Shown piece after piece: positions 5,724 through 64,000 of a stretch of 64,000 nucleotides of DNA. A model generated the notes under the pieces. That model was not told the DNA's origin. It did not search any database and saw only the letters and a list, made by a program, of their open reading frames with translations. The translations under genes and the position numbers were made by a program. The first letter of the stretch is position 1. The number at the start of each line of letters is the position of its first letter. Origin of the DNA: Jiella sonneratiae (GTDB lineage: Bacteria; Pseudomonadota; Alphaproteobacteria; Rhizobiales; Rhizobiaceae); assembly GCF_017353515.1 (NCBI RefSeq), contig NZ_JAFMPY010000006.1, forward strand, positions 1 to 64,000, in the 5' to 3' direction.

Positions 5724-6245
5724 ATGCGCTGTCCCTATTGCGGCTCCCAGGACAGCCAGGTGAAGGACTCGCGCCCGGCCGAGGACGGCGCCGCGATCAG
5801 GCGGCGACGCATCTGCCCCGACTGTTCCGGGCGCTTCACCACCTTCGAGCGGGTGCAGCTGCGCGAGCTGCACGTCCTGAAGAAATCCGGCAAGCGCGTC
5901 GCCTTCGAGCGCGACAAGCTGGCGCGGTCGGTGGAGATCGCGCTTCGCAAGCGGCCGGTCGATCCGCAGCGCGTCGAGCGGATGATCTCCGGCATCGTCC
6001 GGCGCCTCGAACAGATGGGCGAGGCGGAAGTCCGCTCGGAGGTCATCGGCACCATGGTGATGGAGGCGCTGCGCGGCCTCGACGACGTCGCCTATGTGCG
6101 GTTCGCCTCGGTCTATCGCGATTTCGCCGAAGCGAGCGACTTCGAATCGGTGATCGGCGAACTGGCACGGTCCCACAAGGAGGGGCCGATCGCCGCCGTC
6201 GCCAATCCGCCCCAGGCCGGGGAGGTCGTTTCCGATGGCGAATGA
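5724..6245 (+). CDS. nrdR: Transcriptional repressor NrdR
   Basis: Zinc-ribbon/ATP-cone repressor of ribonucleotide reductase genes that senses ATP/dATP. The N-terminus [18 protein letters not shown] and the second pair CPDC at residues 34-37 form the zinc ribbon; [11 protein letters not shown] and [18 protein letters not shown] lead into the ATP-cone domain (about residues 49-139). The 173-aa length is slightly longer than the 150-160 typical, because of a short C-terminal extension. NrdR boxes would be expected at nrd operons, which are not in this window. The gene overlaps ribD by 11 bp, so the two are probably translationally coupled, as in many alphaproteobacteria. Confidence 0.95.
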
Positions 6246-7380
6246 GGCGCGGGCTTTCTCCCCCGAACGACCGGAGGACAGGCGTTTCATGGCGGCGGCG
6301 ATCCGCTTTGCGGCGCGCCATGCCGGCCGGACCGGCACCAACCCGGCGGTCGGGACGCTGATCGTGCGCGACGACCGGGACGGCCGCGGCCCGCGGATCG
6401 TCGGGCGCGGCGTGACGGCACTCGGCGGCCGCCCGCATGCCGAGGCCGGCGCTTTGGCGGAAGCGGGCGACCTCGCCCGCGGCGCGACGGCCTATGTGAC
6501 GCTGGAGCCCTGCGCCCATCACGGCCGCACGCCGCCCTGTGCCGAAGCGCTGGTGGCGGCGGGCATTGCCCGCGTCGTCTCGGCGGCGGCCGATCCCGAC
6601 ATGCGGGTCGACGGCAAGGGCCACGCCATGCTGATCGCCGGCGGCGTCGAGGTGACACCGCGGGTGATGGCGGCCGAGGCGGCGCGCGGGATCGAGGGCT
6701 ATCTGACGAGGCACCGGCGCGGGCGGCCCGGCATCACGCTGAAGCTCGCTCTGTCGCGCGACGGCCGGATCGGCATCCGCGGCGGCGGCCAGGTGAAGAT
6801 CACCGGGCCGGTTTCAGATTCCCAGACCCATCTGGTGAGGGCGCGGCACGACGCCATCCTCGTCGGGGCCGGAACGGCGCTTGAGGACGACCCGCGGCTC
6901 GACTGCCGGCTGCCGGGCATGGCCGACCGCTCGCCGGCCCGGATCATCCTCGACCCGAATTTGCGCGTCTCGCCGGAGATGACCGTCGCGAAGACGGCGC
7001 GAAACGTTTCGACGATGATCGCCACCTTCGAGACCGCCGACCCGGAGCGCCGCGCCGCGCTCGCCGCTGCGGGGGTCTCCTTCATCGCCTGCGTCGCGGA
7101 TCCGGAAACTGGCCGGGTTGCGCTGCCGGAGCTTCTCGAGGATCTCGCGGCGACGGGGATATCCTCGATCCTCGTCGAGGGCGGCGCGATGATCGCCGAG
7201 AGCTTCCTTCAGGCCGATCTCGTCGACCGGCTGATCCTCGTCACCGGTCCTGAGGCCATCGGTGCGGCGGGCATTGCGGCGCCGATCGACGTCGACGCGG
7301 CGCGTCGGCGCTACGCGCTGTTGCGCCAGGACGTTTTCGGCGCCGATGCCTGGTACGAATTTTCCTGCGGAGCTGCCTGA
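6235..7380 (+). CDS. ribD: Bifunctional riboflavin deaminase/reductase RibD
   Basis: Catalyses the second and third steps of riboflavin synthesis from the product of GTP cyclohydrolase II: deamination of the pyrimidine and NADPH reduction of the ribosyl side chain. The N-terminal cytidine-deaminase-like domain shows the zinc motifs HAEAGAL and [11 protein letters not shown]; the C-terminal reductase domain (about residue 160 onward) contains [29 protein letters not shown] and [11 protein letters not shown]. At 381 aa it is of typical length. It overlaps nrdR by 11 bp and ribE by 1 bp (TGATG), indicating a coupled operon nrdR-ribD-ribE with ribH just downstream. Confidence 0.95.
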
Positions 7381-7991
7381 TGTTCACCGGAATCGTCACC
7401 GATGTCGGCCGCGTCGAGGCCGCGGCACCGCGCGAGAAGGGCAGGGCCTTCCGCATCGCCACCGCCTACGACCCGGCCGGGATCGACATCGGCGCGTCGA
7501 TCGCCTGTGCCGGCGTCTGCCTGACGGTGACGGCGCTGCCCGAAGCGACATCCAACGCGCGGTGGTTCGAGGTGGAAGCCTGGGAGGAGGCGCTGCGCCT
7601 GACCACGGCCGGCAAATGGCGGGACGGCACGCGGATCAATCTCGAGCGGTCGCTGAGGGTCGGCGACGAACTCGGCGGCCATCTCGTCTCCGGCCATGTC
7701 GACGGCCTGGCGGAGATCGTCGAGCGCGAGGAGGAGGGAGAGGCGGTCCGGTTTCGCCTCAGGGCGCCTCAGGACCTGAAACGCTACGTCGCCCGCAAGG
7801 GCTCGATCTGTCTCGACGGCACGTCGCTGACGGTGAATTCGGTCGAGGACGACGTCTTCGACGTCCTTCTGATCCGCCATTCGCTGGAGGTCACGACCTG
7901 GGGTGAACGCAGCGTCGGCGACCGCGTCAACCTTGAGATCGACCAGATTGCGCGCTATGCCGAGCGCCTGTTCGGCGCAGCGGCCGGCTGA
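7380..7991 (+). CDS. ribE: Riboflavin synthase alpha chain
   Basis: Dismutates two 6,7-dimethyl-8-ribityllumazine molecules into riboflavin and the pyrimidine intermediate. The canonical start [10 protein letters not shown] and two lumazine-binding barrels are visible; the second begins around residue 98 with GGHLVSGHVDG, and LDGTSLTVNSV is the repeat-specific segment matching IACAGVCLTV in the first. At 203 aa it is normal. It starts inside the ribD stop codon. Partner enzyme RibH lies 132 bp downstream. Confidence 0.95.
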   Translation: MFTGIVTDVGRVEAAAPREKGRAFRIATAYDPAGIDIGASIACAGVCLTVTALPEATSNARWFEVEAWEEALRLTTAGKWRDGTRINLERSLRVGDELGGHLVSGHVDGLAEIVEREEEGEAVRFRLRAPQDLKRYVARKGSICLDGTSLTVNSVEDDVFDVLLIRHSLEVTTWGERSVGDRVNLEIDQIARYAERLFGAAAG

Positions 7992-8123
7992 AGCCATCGA
8001 AGCGGCTCGGCCGGCCGGGCGCCGTTTGAAATTCTCCCCGCTTCGGCCTGCCGCCACGCTTTGATACGCCGCCAGACGCAAGGCGCGTCGACGCCGGGGC
8101 AGCGGGCCTTGAAAGGACAACCC

Positions 8124-8573
8124 ATGGCTTCCAGGCCGCATATCCTGATCGTCGAGGCGCGCTTCTACGGCCATATCGCCGATCATCTTCTCGCCGGCGC
8201 CAAGGCGGCGCTGGACGCCGCCGGGGCGACACACGACGTCGTCACGGTGCCGGGCGCGCTGGAGGCGCCTGCGGCGGTCGGTTTCGCGCTGTCGGGCGCC
8301 GATGGCGGCGGCACCGAATATGACGGTTTCGTCGTGCTCGGCTGCGTCATCCGCGGCGAGACCTTTCACTTCGACATCGTCGCCGGTGAATCCGCCCGGG
8401 CGCTGATGTCGCTCAGCGTCGACGAGGGGATCGCCGTCGGCAACGGCATCCTCACCGTCGAAAACGAGGAGCAGGCGCTGGTGCGCGCCGATCCCGCCCG
8501 CAAGGACAAGGGCGGCGAGGCGGCGAAGACGGCGCTTCGGATGATTGCCCTCAGGGACCACTTCGGAGCCTGA
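8124..8573 (+). CDS. ribH: 6,7-dimethyl-8-ribityllumazine synthase
   Basis: Condenses the RibD product (after dephosphorylation) with 3,4-dihydroxy-2-butanone 4-phosphate to give the riboflavin synthase substrate. Recognised from [17 protein letters not shown], the [11 protein letters not shown] motif, the phosphate-binding segment [12 protein letters not shown] and the C-terminal [13 protein letters not shown]. Length 149 aa is normal. The ATG at 8124 follows GAAAGGACA at good spacing; an upstream ATG at 8061 gives a 21-residue extension lacking homology. The stop is 2 bp before nusB, a pairing seen widely in alphaproteobacteria. Confidence 0.94.
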
Positions 8574-15346: not shown

Positions 15347-17964
15347 TCGGCCGCGTCCCAGAAATGTTCGTCGCGATCGGTGTCTTCGCCGGGTGGCAGC
15401 GTACCGAGCGGGAAGTGGCAGGTGAAGGCCGTTCCCTTGCCGGCGGCCGAGCGCACCTCGACATGGCCGTGATGCAGCTCGACGAAGCTCTTGACGATCG
15501 ACAGGCCGAGCCCGGCGCCGGACTGGCGACCGCCGATCGGATTGGCTTCGAACCGGTCGAACACCTTTTCGATGTTGGGCGTCGCGATGCCCGGGCCGCG
15601 GTCGGAGATCTCGAAGGAGAGCATCCCCTGGTGCCGCCAGGCGCGCACGCCGACGGTCGAGCCCGCCGGTGCGAAGTTCGCGGCGTTGGAGAGGAGGTTG
15701 AACAGGATCTGGGTCAACCGGTGGCCGTCGGCGAGGAAACTGCTTCCGGCCTCCGACAGGTCGACGTCGAGGCGGATGTCGGCCGCCTCGAAGCGGTCCC
15801 TGACGCCGTCGACCGCCTGTTCCACGGTGCGCGCGATGTCGACCTTGGAGAGCTCGAGCTCCATGATCCCGGCGTCGACCGTCGCGAGGTCGAGGATGTC
15901 GTTGACAATTGTCAAAAGTGTCGAGGTCGAGGAGGAGATGTAGTCGAGATACTCGCTCTGGCGCTCGTTGAGGGGGCCGGTCTCGGGCGAGCGGAGCAGG
16001 GCCGAGAAGCCGATGATGTTGGTGAGCGGCGAGCGCAGCTCGTAGTTCACGTGTTGGACGAAGTCGGTCTTGATCTGGTTGGCCTGTTCGAGGGCGTCGT
16101 TGCGCTCGCGCAGCACCAGCTCGGCGGCCCGCGCCTCGGAGATGTTCGAGAAGGTCAGCATCGTCAGCCCGTTGGGCAGCGGCACGATGGTGTAGTTGTA
16201 GATGCGTCCGTCGGAGAGGCTGATCTCGCCGATGAGCGTGTCGCGGCCGTGATCGTCGAAGGCGGTGACCTGTTCGAGGAACAGCTGCCAGCCTTCCGAA
16301 AGGCCCGGCTGCGGCGCGCCACCCGGCCCGAGCGTCGTCACCACCTTGATCGTCGCGACGTCGGCGAGGCCCTGGATCCGCGTGCCGTTCGTCAGCTGCG
16401 CGGCGTCGATGCCCCACATGTCGGCGAAGGCCGGGTTGGAAAGCCGCATCCGCCCGTCGCTGCCGAACACCGCGACCGCCTCCGACAGATAGTCGATGGT
16501 CTCGCGCTGCAGCTGCGAGGTCGACTTGACCTGGCTTTCGAGTTCGAGCTTCTCGGTGATGTCCTCGAACACCCAGGTGGCGCCGCCGCGCGGCTGGGGC
16601 GTCGCGATGACCCGCAGGGTGCGGCCGTCGGTCAGGTGCCACATCGCGTCGACCGGCTCGGTCGCCCGATAGGCGGCGAGGTCGTGCTCCTGCAGTTCCG
16701 AGCGCATCAGCTTCTCGATCGGCAGGACGCCGCGGGTGCGCAGGTGATCGAGCAGCGCGACGTGGTCGGGCTCGGTCTCGAGATAGGCGTTGGTCAGGTC
16801 GAAGAGACGCTGGAAAGCGGAGTTGTAGTAGGCGAGGCGCGTCTTCTCGTCGAACCGCGCCACGGCGGTCGCCAGCTGGTCGAGGGTCTCGGACTGGCTC
16901 TCGATGGTCTGGCGCAGCTCGATGCGCACCTGCTCGGTCTCCGAGACGTCGATGGCGAGGCCGGCCGAGCCGGCCGGCCCGGTGGTCTCGACGACGTTGA
17001 ACTTGCGGCGGTCGGCCGCGACGACGGTCGAGAGCTTGTCGGCGAAGGGCCGCGCCTCGGCGAGATGCCGGGCGACGCGCAGCCGGTCCTGGGCGCTGAG
17101 GAATTCCAGCTGCCCGTCGAGGGCGGCGGTGGCGGAGGGCGCGTCGACGGCGGTGGCATAGGCCTGGTTGACCCAGATCAGCCGGCCGTTGCCGTCGCGC
17201 AGCCAGATCGCCGCCGGCGCGACGTCGAAGAGCTGCTTGAAGGTCGCGACGCCTGCCTCGGCGCGGGAAAGGGCGGTGGTCAGCTCCTCGAGCCTGCGGC
17301 GAATTCCCTCGAGGGCGCTGAACCGGACGACGGCGAGGCCGCCGGAGGTCCGGCCGGCCGCCTCGATCACGCAGTTTTCGTCGAGGTCGATGGCGATGCG
17401 GAACGGCGTGGCGTTTTCCAGCAGCGCTGCGAGCGCGGCTTCGAGGCCGTGCGCGGCTTCGGCCGGCATCCAGTCGGCGAAGACAAGGAAACGCTCGGGA
17501 TCGACCGGCACGCGGGCATGGCCGGCGATCTGGCCGATCACTTCCGGGGCGTTGTGGCCGGCGAAGACCAGGACCCGCTCGTCGCCGGAGATCATCAGCG
17601 CCGTGCGGGCATCCGCCGTCGCCCGGGCTTCGTGGAGCTCGCCGCGGATCACGTCGTTCTCGACCTGCAGCATGGCGCGCTGCCGGATCAGGAAGGTGGC
17701 GGCGACCATCGCCGCACCGATCAGGAAGGCGAGGACGGAAAGATAGAGGATGTCGCTGTCGCCGAGCGAGGTGCCGAAGGCGGTGGCTCCCGCCTCCGCG
17801 GCGAAGACGCATTTCGGCAGCAGGACCAGCCCGAGGGGCTGGACGACCAGGGCCGCCGTCTTCGAAGTCGTGGCGCCGTGACCCGACGCCGTCCTGCGAT
17901 TCAGTCCGGAATCCATGCGCAACCCGGCGGCGCCCCCGCGCCCGGGTCCGATGTCTTTCGACAT
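15343..17964 (-). CDS. divL: DivL-like PAS-domain pseudo-histidine kinase (Tyr at phosphoacceptor)
   Basis: An 873-aa membrane-anchored sensor protein. One or two N-terminal hydrophobic segments (about residues 38-60 and 68-90) are followed by several PAS domains and a kinase core. The dimerisation/phosphotransfer segment reads DFVQHVNYELRSPLTNIIGF: the usual phosphoaccepting His is replaced by Tyr (residue 641, codon 16042-16044), exactly the feature that defines Caulobacter DivL (Tyr550). The ATPase domain keeps its N box (ILFNLLSNAANFAP), G1 (DRGPGI) and G2 (GAGLGLSIV). DivL works as an allosteric regulator of the CckA kinase, and so of CtrA and the cell cycle, reading DivK phosphorylation. 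The gene starts an operon with tsaE-amgK and murU and lies downstream of ahcY beyond a terminator. Confidence 0.88.
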   Translation of the reverse strand: MSKDIGPGRGGAAGLRMDSGLNRRTASGHGATTSKTAALVVQPLGLVLLPKCVFAAEAGATAFGTSLGDSDILYLSVLAFLIGAAMVAATFLIRQRAMLQVENDVIRGELHEARATADARTALMISGDERVLVFAGHNAPEVIGQIAGHARVPVDPERFLVFADWMPAEAAHGLEAALAALLENATPFRIAIDLDENCVIEAAGRTSGGLAVVRFSALEGIRRRLEELTTALSRAEAGVATFKQLFDVAPAAIWLRDGNGRLIWVNQAYATAVDAPSATAALDGQLEFLSAQDRLRVARHLAEARPFADKLSTVVAADRRKFNVVETTGPAGSAGLAIDVSETEQVRIELRQTIESQSETLDQLATAVARFDEKTRLAYYNSAFQRLFDLTNAYLETEPDHVALLDHLRTRGVLPIEKLMRSELQEHDLAAYRATEPVDAMWHLTDGRTLRVIATPQPRGGATWVFEDITEKLELESQVKSTSQLQRETIDYLSEAVAVFGSDGRMRLSNPAFADMWGIDAAQLTNGTRIQGLADVATIKVVTTLGPGGAPQPGLSEGWQLFLEQVTAFDDHGRDTLIGEISLSDGRIYNYTIVPLPNGLTMLTFSNISEARAAELVLRERNDALEQANQIKTDFVQHVNYELRSPLTNIIGFSALLRSPETGPLNERQSEYLDYISSSTSTLLTIVNDILDLATVDAGIMELELSKVDIARTVEQAVDGVRDRFEAADIRLDVDLSEAGSSFLADGHRLTQILFNLLSNAANFAPAGSTVGVRAWRHQGMLSFEISDRGPGIATPNIEKVFDRFEANPIGGRQSGAGLGLSIVKSFVELHHGHVEVRSAAGKGTAFTCHFPLGTLPPGEDTDRDEHFWDAAE

Positions 17965-61151: not shown

Positions 61152-64000
61152 TCAGATCACCCGCCGCAGCACCGCCCTGAACTTCTCCGCCACCTGGCCG
61201 AAGCCGCCGTCGGTGCCGTGGATCTCGTCCGCCCATTCGCCGAGCTCGAGCGTCCCGCGCACGTCGACGACGTGGACGTCGGTCTTTCGCGCGGCGAGGC
61301 CGTTCAGCATGTCGTAGAGCCGGTCGATCAGCAGCCGGACGATGGCGCGCTGCATCTGCGGGTCGACGATCCCCTTCTGGCGCATCGGCCCGCCCAGCCA
61401 CTCGTCCTGCGCCGCCCAGCTCGGGTCGCGGACGTCGCCGGAAAAGCCGCCGGCGATCGCATAGTCGTAGCCGTGGACGAGGATCGGCAGCCGCTCGAAG
61501 CCGCGGCGGGCGTGGATCGTGTCGACGACGGTCTCGTAGGATCGCTCGAGGGTTTCGAGCACCCGCCGCAGGGCCGTTTCGTCGATGTGCCAGGACGCGC
61601 TCTTGCCGGGCTCGAAGTGCTTCAGCAGCGAGCCGAGCACCGGCTTGCCGGTGAGATCCTCGCCGATCACGTCGTTGCCGGCGGCGGAGAACAGGAAGGC
61701 GCGCACGCCATGCTCGCGCACCGCCTCGAGGCCGGCCATGTATTCCGGCTCGGTCCTGACCATGTTCTCGGCCGTGTCGCCGGCCGCCGAAAGGCTCCAG
61801 ATCAGATATTCCTCGCCGAGATGGTCGATGACGTCCTTGATCAGGAACGGGAACTGGAACCAGGAATCGCCTTCCTCGACGAGGACGGGGCTGTGCCTGT
61901 CAAAGATGCGCCGCAGCTCGTAGGCGCGGTTGCGGCGCCAGCGGCTGAGGGCGTTGCCCCAGCCGAGGGCGCTCTCGACCTCGAGGCGTGCGGTCCCCTC
62001 CATCCGCACCATGGCGGGATCGGGCCTGACCTCCGGACTGAAGGCGCCGGAGCGCTTCGGCACGCCCGTCAGATAGCGGGCGATCGTCTCGTCCGGCACC
62101 TTCGGATCGAGCATCATCGCCTTGAGCTGCTCGTAGGAGATCCGTTCGCCCTCGGCGGCGGCTGCGGCCGCGGGTATCCCGTTGCCGGTGCCCCCGCCCG
62201 CGCCGCGAACCGCGCCTTCGTGCTGCGACGCGGCGCCGCGCCCCCCGCGCGCCGAGGCGAAGACGATGTCGGCCTCGTTCGTGACGACGCGGCTTCCCAC
62301 CCTTTCGCGGACGGATTCGGCGCTGGCGCCGGCGGGGCTGCCGGCGGCGGCCGCGAAGGCGTCGCGCTGGCGCAGCGTGCCGAAATCGAGGCCGGTGATC
62401 GCCTCGAGCTCGGCGATCGCGATCTGCTGCGGCCTGAATTCGACGAGCCCCTGGTCCAGCGCGGCCTCGCGCGCCAGCCCGGCGATCTGGTCGGCCTGGC
62501 TCAGCCGGAAGGCGAGGGCGCTCACCTTGGTCTCGCTCTCCGGGAAGATCACCAGCTTCCAGAAGGCCGCGGGGACGAAGAAGTCGTGCCGGTACGGCCG
62601 GTCATGCTCGGTGAAGACCGGCCCGTTCATCACGCTGAGCCGCCGCTGCGACTGGCCGGCGAGCCGGGCGACGGCGTTTTCGAGATTGCCCCAGAGCATC
62701 AGGCCCTTGCGGCTGGCGAGCCGGGACTGGTTGAAGATCTCGTGCTGCGGCGAGCAGTTGGTGAAGTGGAACGTGTCGTCGTTGGCGCGTTCGGCCTCTT
62801 CCGTGCTGTGTCCCCAGGCGGCGTCGGCGCGGCGCACCAGATGGCCGCGATCGAGCGGGTTGTCGCGGTAATAGCTGCCGTCCGCCTGCAGCGCCGCGGC
62901 GAGGCGCGGATCGAGATACCAGCGGTCCGAACCCTCGCGGCTCTGCTGGAAGGGCGCGGCGCCGTCGATGTTGACCGCCGAGACATAGGCGAGCCGGCGC
63001 CGCTCGTTCATCATCACGCTGTAATGATGGTATTTCAGCTCCGGACCCGACGCGGTCGCGGCGAGCGGGCCGTGGCTCGCATCCCTGAGGGTCGGCAGCG
63101 GCACGGCCTCGCCGAGAAAGACCGGATCGTAGCCGACTCTGTTCTTGTAGTCCGGGTCCGACGGGTCGGGCCGGCCGCTTTCGGTCGCGGCGACGGGAAG
63201 CGCGTCTCCGCCGCAGGTTGCACGGGGCCCCACCACGGGCTTGTCGCGCGAGACGGACCCTGCCGAGAGCGCACCGCCCCCGGATATTCCGCCTTCCGGA
63301 CCACCATCGTGCCGACCACGCGAAGGGCCGTCGTCCGTTGCGCGATCGCCGCTCCCGCCGGCCTGCGGCGTCTCGCCAGGCCGGTCATCCGGCTGCGTCT
63401 CGCCCGGCACGTCGGTGATCGGGGTCGGGTCCGACATCGCCTTCTCGGCGCGCTTCTTGGCGGCCTCCGGCCGGCCCTGCAAGGCCCAGGTCGCCAGCGC
63501 TTCGTCGCGAACCGCATCCATCGCCGGGTCGAGCGGAACGTCGCGGATGAAGTTGACGAGCCGCGAGACCCTGATGCCCTCGTTGGCGACCCAGACGATC
63601 CGGTCGGGCGAATCGCCCTGGCGCAGGACGACGCCGCCGGCGTCGACGAGTTCGCCGTTGGCGTCGGTCTTCGGCACCGAGGAATGATGCAGCGCCACCA
63701 CCTCCCACTGGTCGTTGAAGACCGGCGAGCCGGACGAGCCCTGCTCGGTGTCGCTCTCGTAGTGGAAGAAGATGTCGAGACCGTCGCCCTCCGGCAGGTC
63801 GAGAAGCCGGTTGTTGCGGATCACCACTTCCTTCGGCCGTCCCGCCGGGTGCTGGACGATGTTCAGGGCCTCGCCGACGCGGGCCTTGCCCTCGTCGCCG
63901 ATCAGCGGCAGCAGCATGGCCGTGTCGAGCGTCGTGCCGCTCTGCGACGTCTTCTCGATGGCGACGAGGGTGAAGTCCAGCCGCGTGTCGGTGAGGAAGA
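61152..64000 (-). CDS. Trypsin-like protease / DRGH nuclease / SGNH hydrolase fusion (5' end beyond window)
   Basis: The frame is open to the window edge, so at least 948 residues are visible and the start is missing. Three domains are seen. (1) Trypsin/V8-like serine protease: catalytic Asp in LDFTLVAIE (codon 63975-63977) and Ser in QGSSGSPVF (codon 63732-63734); the His lies off the window. A Pro/Gly/Asp-rich linker follows. (2) DNA/RNA non-specific endonuclease: NPLDRGHLVRRADAAWG (DRGH near 62841-62852) and FHFTNCSPQHEIFNQ, the NUC1 active-site pattern. (3) After a second linker, an SGNH/GDSL-type hydrolase: VEEGDSWFQF (Ser codon 61863-61865), SAAGNDVIG and ADEIHGTDGGF. Such an effector-like combination suggests biological conflict or immune function, but I know of no defined role. 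Convergent with the HerA-like gene. Confidence 0.85.
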   Translation of the reverse strand, partial: FLTDTRLDFTLVAIEKTSQSGTTLDTAMLLPLIGDEGKARVGEALNIVQHPAGRPKEVVIRNNRLLDLPEGDGLDIFFHYESDTEQGSSGSPVFNDQWEVVALHHSSVPKTDANGELVDAGGVVLRQGDSPDRIVWVANEGIRVSRLVNFIRDVPLDPAMDAVRDEALATWALQGRPEAAKKRAEKAMSDPTPITDVPGETQPDDRPGETPQAGGSGDRATDDGPSRGRHDGGPEGGISGGGALSAGSVSRDKPVVGPRATCGGDALPVAATESGRPDPSDPDYKNRVGYDPVFLGEAVPLPTLRDASHGPLAATASGPELKYHHYSVMMNERRRLAYVSAVNIDGAAPFQQSREGSDRWYLDPRLAAALQADGSYYRDNPLDRGHLVRRADAAWGHSTEEAERANDDTFHFTNCSPQHEIFNQSRLASRKGLMLWGNLENAVARLAGQSQRRLSVMNGPVFTEHDRPYRHDFFVPAAFWKLVIFPESETKVSALAFRLSQADQIAGLAREAALDQGLVEFRPQQIAIAELEAITGLDFGTLRQRDAFAAAAGSPAGASAESVRERVGSRVVTNEADIVFASARGGRGAASQHEGAVRGAGGGTGNGIPAAAAAAEGERISYEQLKAMMLDPKVPDETIARYLTGVPKRSGAFSPEVRPDPAMVRMEGTARLEVESALGWGNALSRWRRNRAYELRRIFDRHSPVLVEEGDSWFQFPFLIKDVIDHLGEEYLIWSLSAAGDTAENMVRTEPEYMAGLEAVREHGVRAFLFSAAGNDVIGEDLTGKPVLGSLLKHFEPGKSASWHIDETALRRVLETLERSYETVVDTIHARRGFERLPILVHGYDYAIAGGFSGDVRDPSWAAQDEWLGGPMRQKGIVDPQMQRAIVRLLIDRLYDMLNGLAARKTDVHVVDVRGTLELGEWADEIHGTDGGFGQVAEKFRAVLRRVI

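Follow-up and report, generated by a model that had tools for sequence, protein, structure and literature searches.

At the right-hand end of the 64,000-nucleotide stretch of Jiella sonneratiae DNA analyzed here (contig NZ_JAFMPY010000006.1, positions 1 to 64,000; hereafter the window) lies a reverse-strand gene that an original prediction, made from the sequence of the window, took to encode a protease, a nuclease, and an SGNH hydrolase in one polypeptide. The frame in question, 61152-63998(−), is a true open frame that runs beyond the window edge. Reading the sequence to the right of the window, as had been proposed, located both the ATG start, 547 bases past the window, and the protease histidine (H145, 64113-64115). 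The part within the window (61152..64000) belongs to a full open reading frame (ORF) of 1131 amino acids, 61152-64547(−) (G000:C60), on a contig, C60, of 242 kb. Three hydrolase domains do lie on this one chain: a Trypsin_2 peptidase, an Endonuclease_NS/NucA nuclease, and a C-terminal SGNH hydrolase. The first two are found directly by Pfam (E values of 5.4e-22 and 9.2e-40), and the third is recognized by the PF13472 matches of its relatives and by its fold. The residues of all three active sites, predicted to be intact, are conserved in the alignments described below.

The protease domain occupies residues 130 to 286 (63690-64160, reverse strand; 63690..64000 within the window), assigned from the Trypsin_2 match, from conservation, and from a structural model of a related protein, L036 (loci are designated L and genomes G throughout). 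Its triad comprises H145, beyond the window, D191 (63975-63977), and S272 (63732-63734). In an alignment of 46 trypsin-NucA proteins, the window protein among them, H145 is conserved in 45 rows, with a gap in the other, and D191 and S272 are conserved in all 46. T267 and H287, two S1-pocket positions, are likewise kept in 46/46 rows; we take these to be Thr190 and His213 in chymotrypsin numbering, the residues that mark S1B glutamyl endopeptidases. The best PDB sequence matches of the protease part are to exfoliative toxins, Spl, and V8-type proteases. Because of these matches and the T267/H287 pair, cleavage after Glu appears the likelier specificity, and the label "trypsin-like" could mislead. 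The top PDB match in the fold search with the L036 model was the FAM111A protease, which is one among many S1 folds, and we argue no kinship from it. By a crude hydropathy criterion (a 17-residue mean above 1.9), 0/46 trypsin-NucA rows have a hydrophobic stretch before the protease His motif, and Sec export of these proteins therefore seems unlikely; neither Pfam nor the hydropathy test recognized an N-terminal trafficking region or domain in the window protein.

The nuclease domain, of the NucA/EndoG type, spans residues 501 to 724 (62376..63047, reverse strand). It contains a DRGH motif (62841-62852), and H569, N597 (62757-62759), and N606 (62730-62732) are each kept in 46/46 trypsin-NucA rows. 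The protease-nuclease fold was modeled on the relative L036 rather than on the window protein, and a Foldseek search with that model matched Serratia nuclease, EndoG, and NucA.

SGNH/GDSL hydrolases are defined by catalytic Ser, Gly, Asn, and Asp-His blocks. In the C-terminal module of the window protein, residues 838 to 1129 (61161..62036, reverse strand), these are represented by S895 (61863-61865), G923, N958 (61674-61676), D1107 (61227-61229), and H1110 (61218-61220), all unchanged in 15/15 aligned rows, the most distant of which shares 25% identity with the window sequence. The Pfam SGNH/GDSL models gave no match to the window protein at E ≤ 1, so that the expectation of a significant domain hit held directly for the protease and nuclease and only by way of relatives and fold for this module. 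The homologous module of the relatives matches PF13472 (Lipase_GDSL_2) with E values of 1.2e-11 (L016), 3.4e-11 (L024), and 6.9e-10 (L017). A model of the window module built from 6 sequences (predicted local distance difference test score [pLDDT] of 74.6; predicted template modeling score of 0.74) matches GDSL esterases, the only PDB matches at E ≤ 0.001 being 8ik1 (EstL5; E 6.8e-5) and 7e16 (GDSL esterase; E 1.1e-4). Thus, the module shares catalytic blocks and a GDSL-esterase-like fold with the SGNH/GDSL hydrolases (PF13472, PF00657), but its family stands apart from these enzymes at large by a conserved preamble of its own, by recurrent peptidase partners, and, for the window protein, by falling under Pfam detection. 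The preamble (ISYEQLKAMMLDPKVPDETIARYL...; 62001..62159, reverse strand) lies near the start in stand-alone SGNH genes. The possibility that it is a free-standing adaptor tag was rejected: in the loci scanned it was found solely ahead of SGNH domains, for which reason we count it within the SGNH family.

Protease and nuclease are joined by a low-complexity linker of approximately residues 367 to 455 (63183..63449, reverse strand), delimited by the pLDDT of the L036 model and by lower GC content at codon position 3 (GC3). In that model, pLDDT is below 50 at stretches 391 to 424 and 426 to 469, which shows the linker to be disordered as modeled. A hairpin in this linker, with the strict pattern PLxITxSxG, was found in 9/46 trypsin-NucA rows, 0/44 other trypsin fusions, and 0/860 shuffled linkers; present in these 9 rows only and absent from the linker of the window protein, it was dropped as a mark of all fusions. 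In most stand-alone trypsin-NucA proteins the C terminus is a short D-[IL]-x-L tail, with D in 28/46 rows and Q in 9/46 at the tail column, and L in 32/46 and F in 3/46 at the last column; the last strand of the L036 model is formed by residues 759 to 761. In the window protein the corresponding motif, D-I-V-F (residues 760 to 763; 62259..62270, reverse strand), lies inside the chain; a 33-residue Ala/Gly-rich linker (residues 764 to 796; 62160..62258, reverse strand) comes after it, and then the start of a complete SGNH protein. From the alignment, D-I-V-F likely marks the former end of a trypsin-NucA protein.

The codon signature is continuous along the gene. GC3 is 0.82 to 1.0 in 26/28 blocks of 40 codons each, and the nuclease-SGNH linker, at 0.90, is coding-like with an unbroken signature. 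The other two blocks, at 0.68 and 0.80 (codons 401 to 480), extend over the bulk of the linker between protease and nuclease and into the beginning of the nuclease part, and the two alternative frames of that linker contained nothing resembling the linkers of relatives. Because the signature is continuous and the alternative frames lack linker-like sequence, the joining of two genes by a frameshift, which the original prediction had named as a threat to its reading, has left no sign; judged from codon usage and frame checks, such a join is unlikely.

Among the best 80 of 267 relatives, the nearest to the protease half is L036, from a Methylobacterium metagenome-assembled genome, in which the trypsin-NucA and SGNH proteins are encoded by separate, head-to-head genes. 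The SGNH part is nearest to L137 (59% identity), followed by L116 and L036. No second three-part single chain was found among 150 other genomes or in the best 80 of 267 loci from genome contigs. Relatives are common on rhizobial plasmids, and in the plasmid records one place (H1) covers at least 80% of the window protein, with the SGNH and trypsin-NucA proteins encoded there by two co-oriented genes; 60 of the 142 matching records were listed and 8 inspected, and divergent fusions that align piecewise may escape in the other 82. Trypsin-SGNH fusions themselves occur elsewhere (L116, L138, L143, L181, L193, and L194), with a TPR-S domain ahead of the trypsin and SGNH domains in L194.

The gene is variable within the genus. 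We searched nine other members of the genus for the two flanking proteins, taken to be a DUF853/HerA-like ATPase and an FTR1-like permease, and both were present in four (G004, G007, G008, and G009); in each of these they lie close together on one contig, and the gene is missing from between them. At the DNA level, the interval between conserved stretches measures 3.9 kb here against 224 bp in G007; in the comparison with G004, G008, and G009, it is 4.5 kb here against 266 to 552 bp.

The SGNH family is sparse: its profile (A1) matched 7/384 other genomes in a class sample and 24/396 in an order sample. In the 31 loci retrieved in this way, a trypsin is present in the same protein in 3 (L181 and L194, and L193 weakly, under Pfam's cut-off) and in an adjoining gene in 6 (L124, L184, L185, L186, L188, and L192; L184 and L185 are near-copies). 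These 9/31 loci compare with approximately 0.2 expected by chance, given 5 kb per locus and a background of approximately 1.2 Trypsin_2 matches per Mb (112 matches in 21 genomes). Another peptidase is fused or adjoining in a further 6/31: a caspase in L120, a papain-like C1 peptidase in L178, L180, and L190 (the match in L178 being slightly under Pfam's cut-off and that in L190 assigned from similarity to L180's), and a C25 peptidase in L201 and L183, in the latter with a small overlapping predicted ORF separating the C25 gene from the SGNH gene. Altogether, 15/31 loci have a peptidase fused or adjoining, and 17/31 when subtilases two genes off (L196 and L197) are included. Gene calls in these neighborhoods are crude, and the SGNH neighbor scan (70 proteins, 40 loci) covered mostly immediate neighbors and a few one gene further, with genes over 3.6 kb excluded and the 25 commonest families reported; some of the matches were subsequently assigned to individual proteins. 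Loci retrieved by other routes hold further arrangements: trypsin-EEP-SGNH (L116), trypsin-EEP followed by SGNH (L137), trypsin-SGNH (L138), SGNH-trypsin-EEP (L143, with EEP assigned by Pfam), SGNH-caspase (L140), SGNH-metallopeptidase (L121 and L122), and SGNH-Amidase_3-M15 (L139).

In the SGNH tree the window module falls in a set of 10 rows (SH-like approximate likelihood ratio test support of 82), and 8 of the 9 others adjoin or are fused to a trypsin. In the trypsin tree the SGNH-linked trypsins lie in separate lineages; the SGNH label, given to rows by locus, must change 8 times on it, with starred branches forcing at least 4 of these changes. This tree used 78 of 117 rows, the weak trypsins of L181 and L193 did not reach the entry threshold, and some placements are unsure because of long branches. 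From the trees, the SGNH family thus seems to have been joined by different trypsins repeatedly, and the nuclease in these pairings varies (NucA, EEP, or none).

Several loci of this set merit a separate record. The gene at L125:1017-3170, beside a trypsin-NucA gene, belongs to the same papain-like C1 family that occurs near SGNH genes in L178, L180, L181, L190, and L120, and the presence of this family at both kinds of locus therefore links the two gene pools. On the Geminocystis plasmid pGM3709_07 (L138:1468-7431), genes for a fusion of trypsin with SGNH, for GH19, TPR, and amidase proteins, and for a fusion of trypsin with a murein endopeptidase stand in series, as if forming a single anti-cell-wall cassette. 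Some genes of the SGNH family have matches to animal-type heme peroxidases nearby, and one SGNH domain shares its frame with a match to a Dyp-type peroxidase (L181:11316-13214, L202:10374-11963, L118:3854-5218, and L204:392-5152). L118 also contains broken trypsin-EEP and SGNH genes (5739-8525 and 16875-17453), apparently a decaying copy, the SGNH pieces of which are too short for the SGNH tree. In L119 (6856-7425), a phage-tail-lysozyme-like gene adjoins an SGNH gene that has no peptidase neighbor.

Around the window gene itself, no STAND, TIR, or EAD neighbor and no further peptidase was recognized among the listed ORFs, and no immunity gene was recognized among ORFs of at least 150 amino acids. 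A search of the source genome for EAD1 was silent, as were the same searches of 14 control genomes. Across homologues, the neighborhood check suggested in the original prediction found a NACHT-type STAND gene no more than two genes away from trypsin-NucA in 3/39 loci (the scan of these loci covered 139 proteins of 100 to 1300 amino acids within two genes, with the 25 commonest families reported). In two actinobacteria (L050:7672-9900 and L054:7691-9895) the NACHT-STAND gene is upstream at a distance of approximately 60 bp, so that it and trypsin-NucA look like a two-gene operon of sensor and effector; in L053 (12147-14315) it is downstream on the other strand, in convergent orientation. Downstream of trypsin-NucA in L136 (12702-13549) are two small proteins that by eye resemble I9-type peptidase-inhibitor domains and that could possibly be protease inhibitors acting in trans. 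A phage origin of the window gene was rejected, as the single match in 50,697 phage records was weak (22% identity) and confined to the nuclease part. The whole-protein query found no relative in viral contigs; the SGNH profile matched four distant SGNH proteins there (IMG/VR L211-L214, approximately 6001-6790; frames of 265 to 301 residues), with approximately 24 to 28% identity to that of the window.

The protease-nuclease pair has a published precedent. In Kaur et al. 2020 (eLife e52696, PMC7159879), System 3 is a NucA-trypsin conflict system, mostly alphaproteobacterial, for which a proteolytic cascade that deploys the NucA nuclease is predicted; the suggestion that a protease placed before a nuclease points to activation by proteolysis therefore agrees with a prediction already made for this architecture. 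Around the NucA-trypsin core, extra modules are described: a subtilisin (S8) fused into the chain itself, and peptidoglycan-targeting modules of lysozyme-like and papain-like type that are coupled via EAD1. Several peptidase copies per operon are optional, and EAD1-coupled effectors and a STAND NTPase occur in subsets; alpha/beta-hydrolases are named as caspase partners in other systems. The words SGNH, GDSL, lipase, and esterase have 0 occurrences in the text (PMC7159879). The window protein shares with System 3 a trypsin-like peptidase and a NucA/Endonuclease_NS nuclease in one protein with intact active-site residues, but its gene is single and isolated, has no repeated trypsin genes, and carries an SGNH domain.

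Two further systems invite comparison. LypC, of the CARD-NLR-like LypABC system of Caulobacter crescentus (Banks et al. 2026, PMC13236601), is described as an N-terminal trypsin-like peptidase, a flexible linker, and a C-terminal endonuclease with catalytic His/Asn, and by this described layout it resembles the window protein; its peptidase Ser is required for lysis and its nuclease residues are dispensable. LypC differs in acting with LypA (CARD-trypsin-ATPase) and LypB (NLR-like ATPase) from the same operon and in having no reported SGNH part. Among the listed neighbors of the window gene, none like LypA or LypB was recognized by eye. Tuck et al. 2025 (PMC12799240) describe trypsin-activated pro-nucleases in Hachiman and AVAST, with pairs also in Lamassu and DRT, as well as canu; there, pro-nucleases of another fold are opened by partner trypsin-like proteases or caspases. 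We liken these pairs to the window protein in that a protease turns on a partner nuclease by cleavage, but the nuclease there has a metallo-beta-lactamase fold and its own gene, whereas the window nuclease has the NucA fold and shares a chain with its protease. In a literature search that was short on subscription papers, no published description was found of an SGNH hydrolase as a third arm or recurrent peptidase partner. The supposition that no described system has this set of domains therefore stands, as far as that search reaches, for the SGNH addition and not for the protease-nuclease pair, which is of the System 3 kind. Because that pair is already described, what appears to be new is the SGNH third arm and the recurrent SGNH-peptidase pairing.

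On balance, and by a modest lean, we favor the view that the window gene, which varies horizontally, is by itself a complete conflict effector in which a System 3-type trypsin-NucA protein and a complete SGNH esterase are joined end to end, acting in the cytoplasm, activated by its own protease, and aimed at several targets. A cytoplasmic, self-processing effector is the best reading because no Sec-type stretch is present and because protease-triggered effectors have been published (Kaur, LypC, Tuck). The protease would be held quiet until a trigger, infection or damage, acts through a partner and brings copies of the protein together; it would then cut the linkers, perhaps after Glu, and thereby free or switch on the DNA/RNA-degrading and the ester-cleaving enzymes. 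Nucleic acids and membrane or envelope esters would be attacked together, and the cell would die or the invader be stopped. This route of activation and release is an inference; what the analysis shows is three domains with intact active-site residues, no hydrophobic export signal, a linker disordered in the L036 model, repeated pairing of SGNH proteins with peptidases, and a gene present in some members of the genus and absent from others. The NACHT-STAND genes just upstream of trypsin-NucA in L050 and L054 and the empty sites in the genus also speak for the favored view.

Several points weigh against the favored view. No sensor or regulator was recognized among the ORFs listed beside the gene in the source genome, where a search for NACHT gave one sub-threshold match. 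Trypsin-NucA genes in general show no defense-island signal: at E ≤ 1e-10, PADLOC recognized five families, with one member each, among the 139 neighbors of the 39 trypsin-NucA loci, and we rejected a defense-island context on this result. In the SGNH family, 14/31 loci have no peptidase within two genes by the crude annotation, and 6 of the 9 relatives in the SGNH clade of the window were retrieved by the full-length query, which favors trypsin-bearing loci. Finally, the nuclease need not be the killing part, since the nuclease residues of LypC are dispensable for lysis.

Other readings differ in where, and for what, the enzyme acts. The protein could be a multi-warhead effector that is made without a signal peptide and injected into a competitor or a eukaryote, or released by lysis, with the protease processing the chain in the target. 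Delivery into another cell is conceivable because several related clusters hold cell-wall hydrolases: SGNH/trypsin genes are grouped with such enzymes, with N termini that by eye lack a signal peptide (the GH19 and amidase genes of L138 and the chitosanase and L,D-transpeptidase genes of L140), and the SGNH fusions to Amidase_3 and/or M15 in L124, L139, and L192 point the same way. A Rap1a/Tai immunity annotation near the SGNH-caspase gene (L140:16347-16673) hints at interbacterial use. Set against this, no immunity or secretion gene was recognized among the ORFs listed beside the window gene and no N-terminal trafficking region in its product, and we consider delivery unlikely. Less probable still is a lysis factor domesticated to release phage-like particles, as LypC does for the Caulobacter gene transfer agent; the shared trypsin-endonuclease layout and the essential peptidase Ser of LypC speak for it, but LypC works with LypA and LypB from its own operon, and no such neighbors were recognized here.

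The more mundane explanations fare worse. All three domain types, trypsin-like, Endonuclease_NS, and SGNH, are common among digestive enzymes, and a hydrolase that combines three digestive activities for scavenging or housekeeping could be imagined; however, the lack of a hydrophobic N-terminal stretch in all 46 trypsin-NucA rows, the patchy presence with empty sites, and fusion partners that vary between loci make this improbable. An assembly artefact, in which a sequencing error merged neighboring genes, would fit the separate SGNH genes of L036 and L137 and the lack of the three-part fusion in any other genome examined. The L137 genes are co-oriented and 12 bp apart, such that a single indel could join them; the L036 genes are divergent, and one indel could not. 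Given the codon signature that continues over the 33-residue linker and the six other trypsin-SGNH fusions known here, we regard an artefact as very improbable.

Beyond the favored view of the window gene as a cytoplasmic, protease-activated effector, we tentatively propose, with slightly more doubt than confidence, that the SGNH family with its short preamble is a shared warhead of combinatorial conflict proteins, with interchangeable partners drawn from peptidases (trypsin, papain-like, caspase, C25, subtilase, or metallopeptidase), nucleases (NucA or EEP), and cell-wall hydrolases. The window protein would be the most compact form, in which a single cleavage turns the chain against proteins, nucleic acids, and the esters of lipids or the cell wall simultaneously. 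If these proposals are true, System 3-type protease-nuclease proteins would form part of a wider toolkit that combines a conserved esterase family with proteases of many kinds, an ester-cleaving arm would be added to bacterial cell-death effectors, and this gene would provide a simple, one-gene model for how a bacterial protease frees several destructive enzymes.

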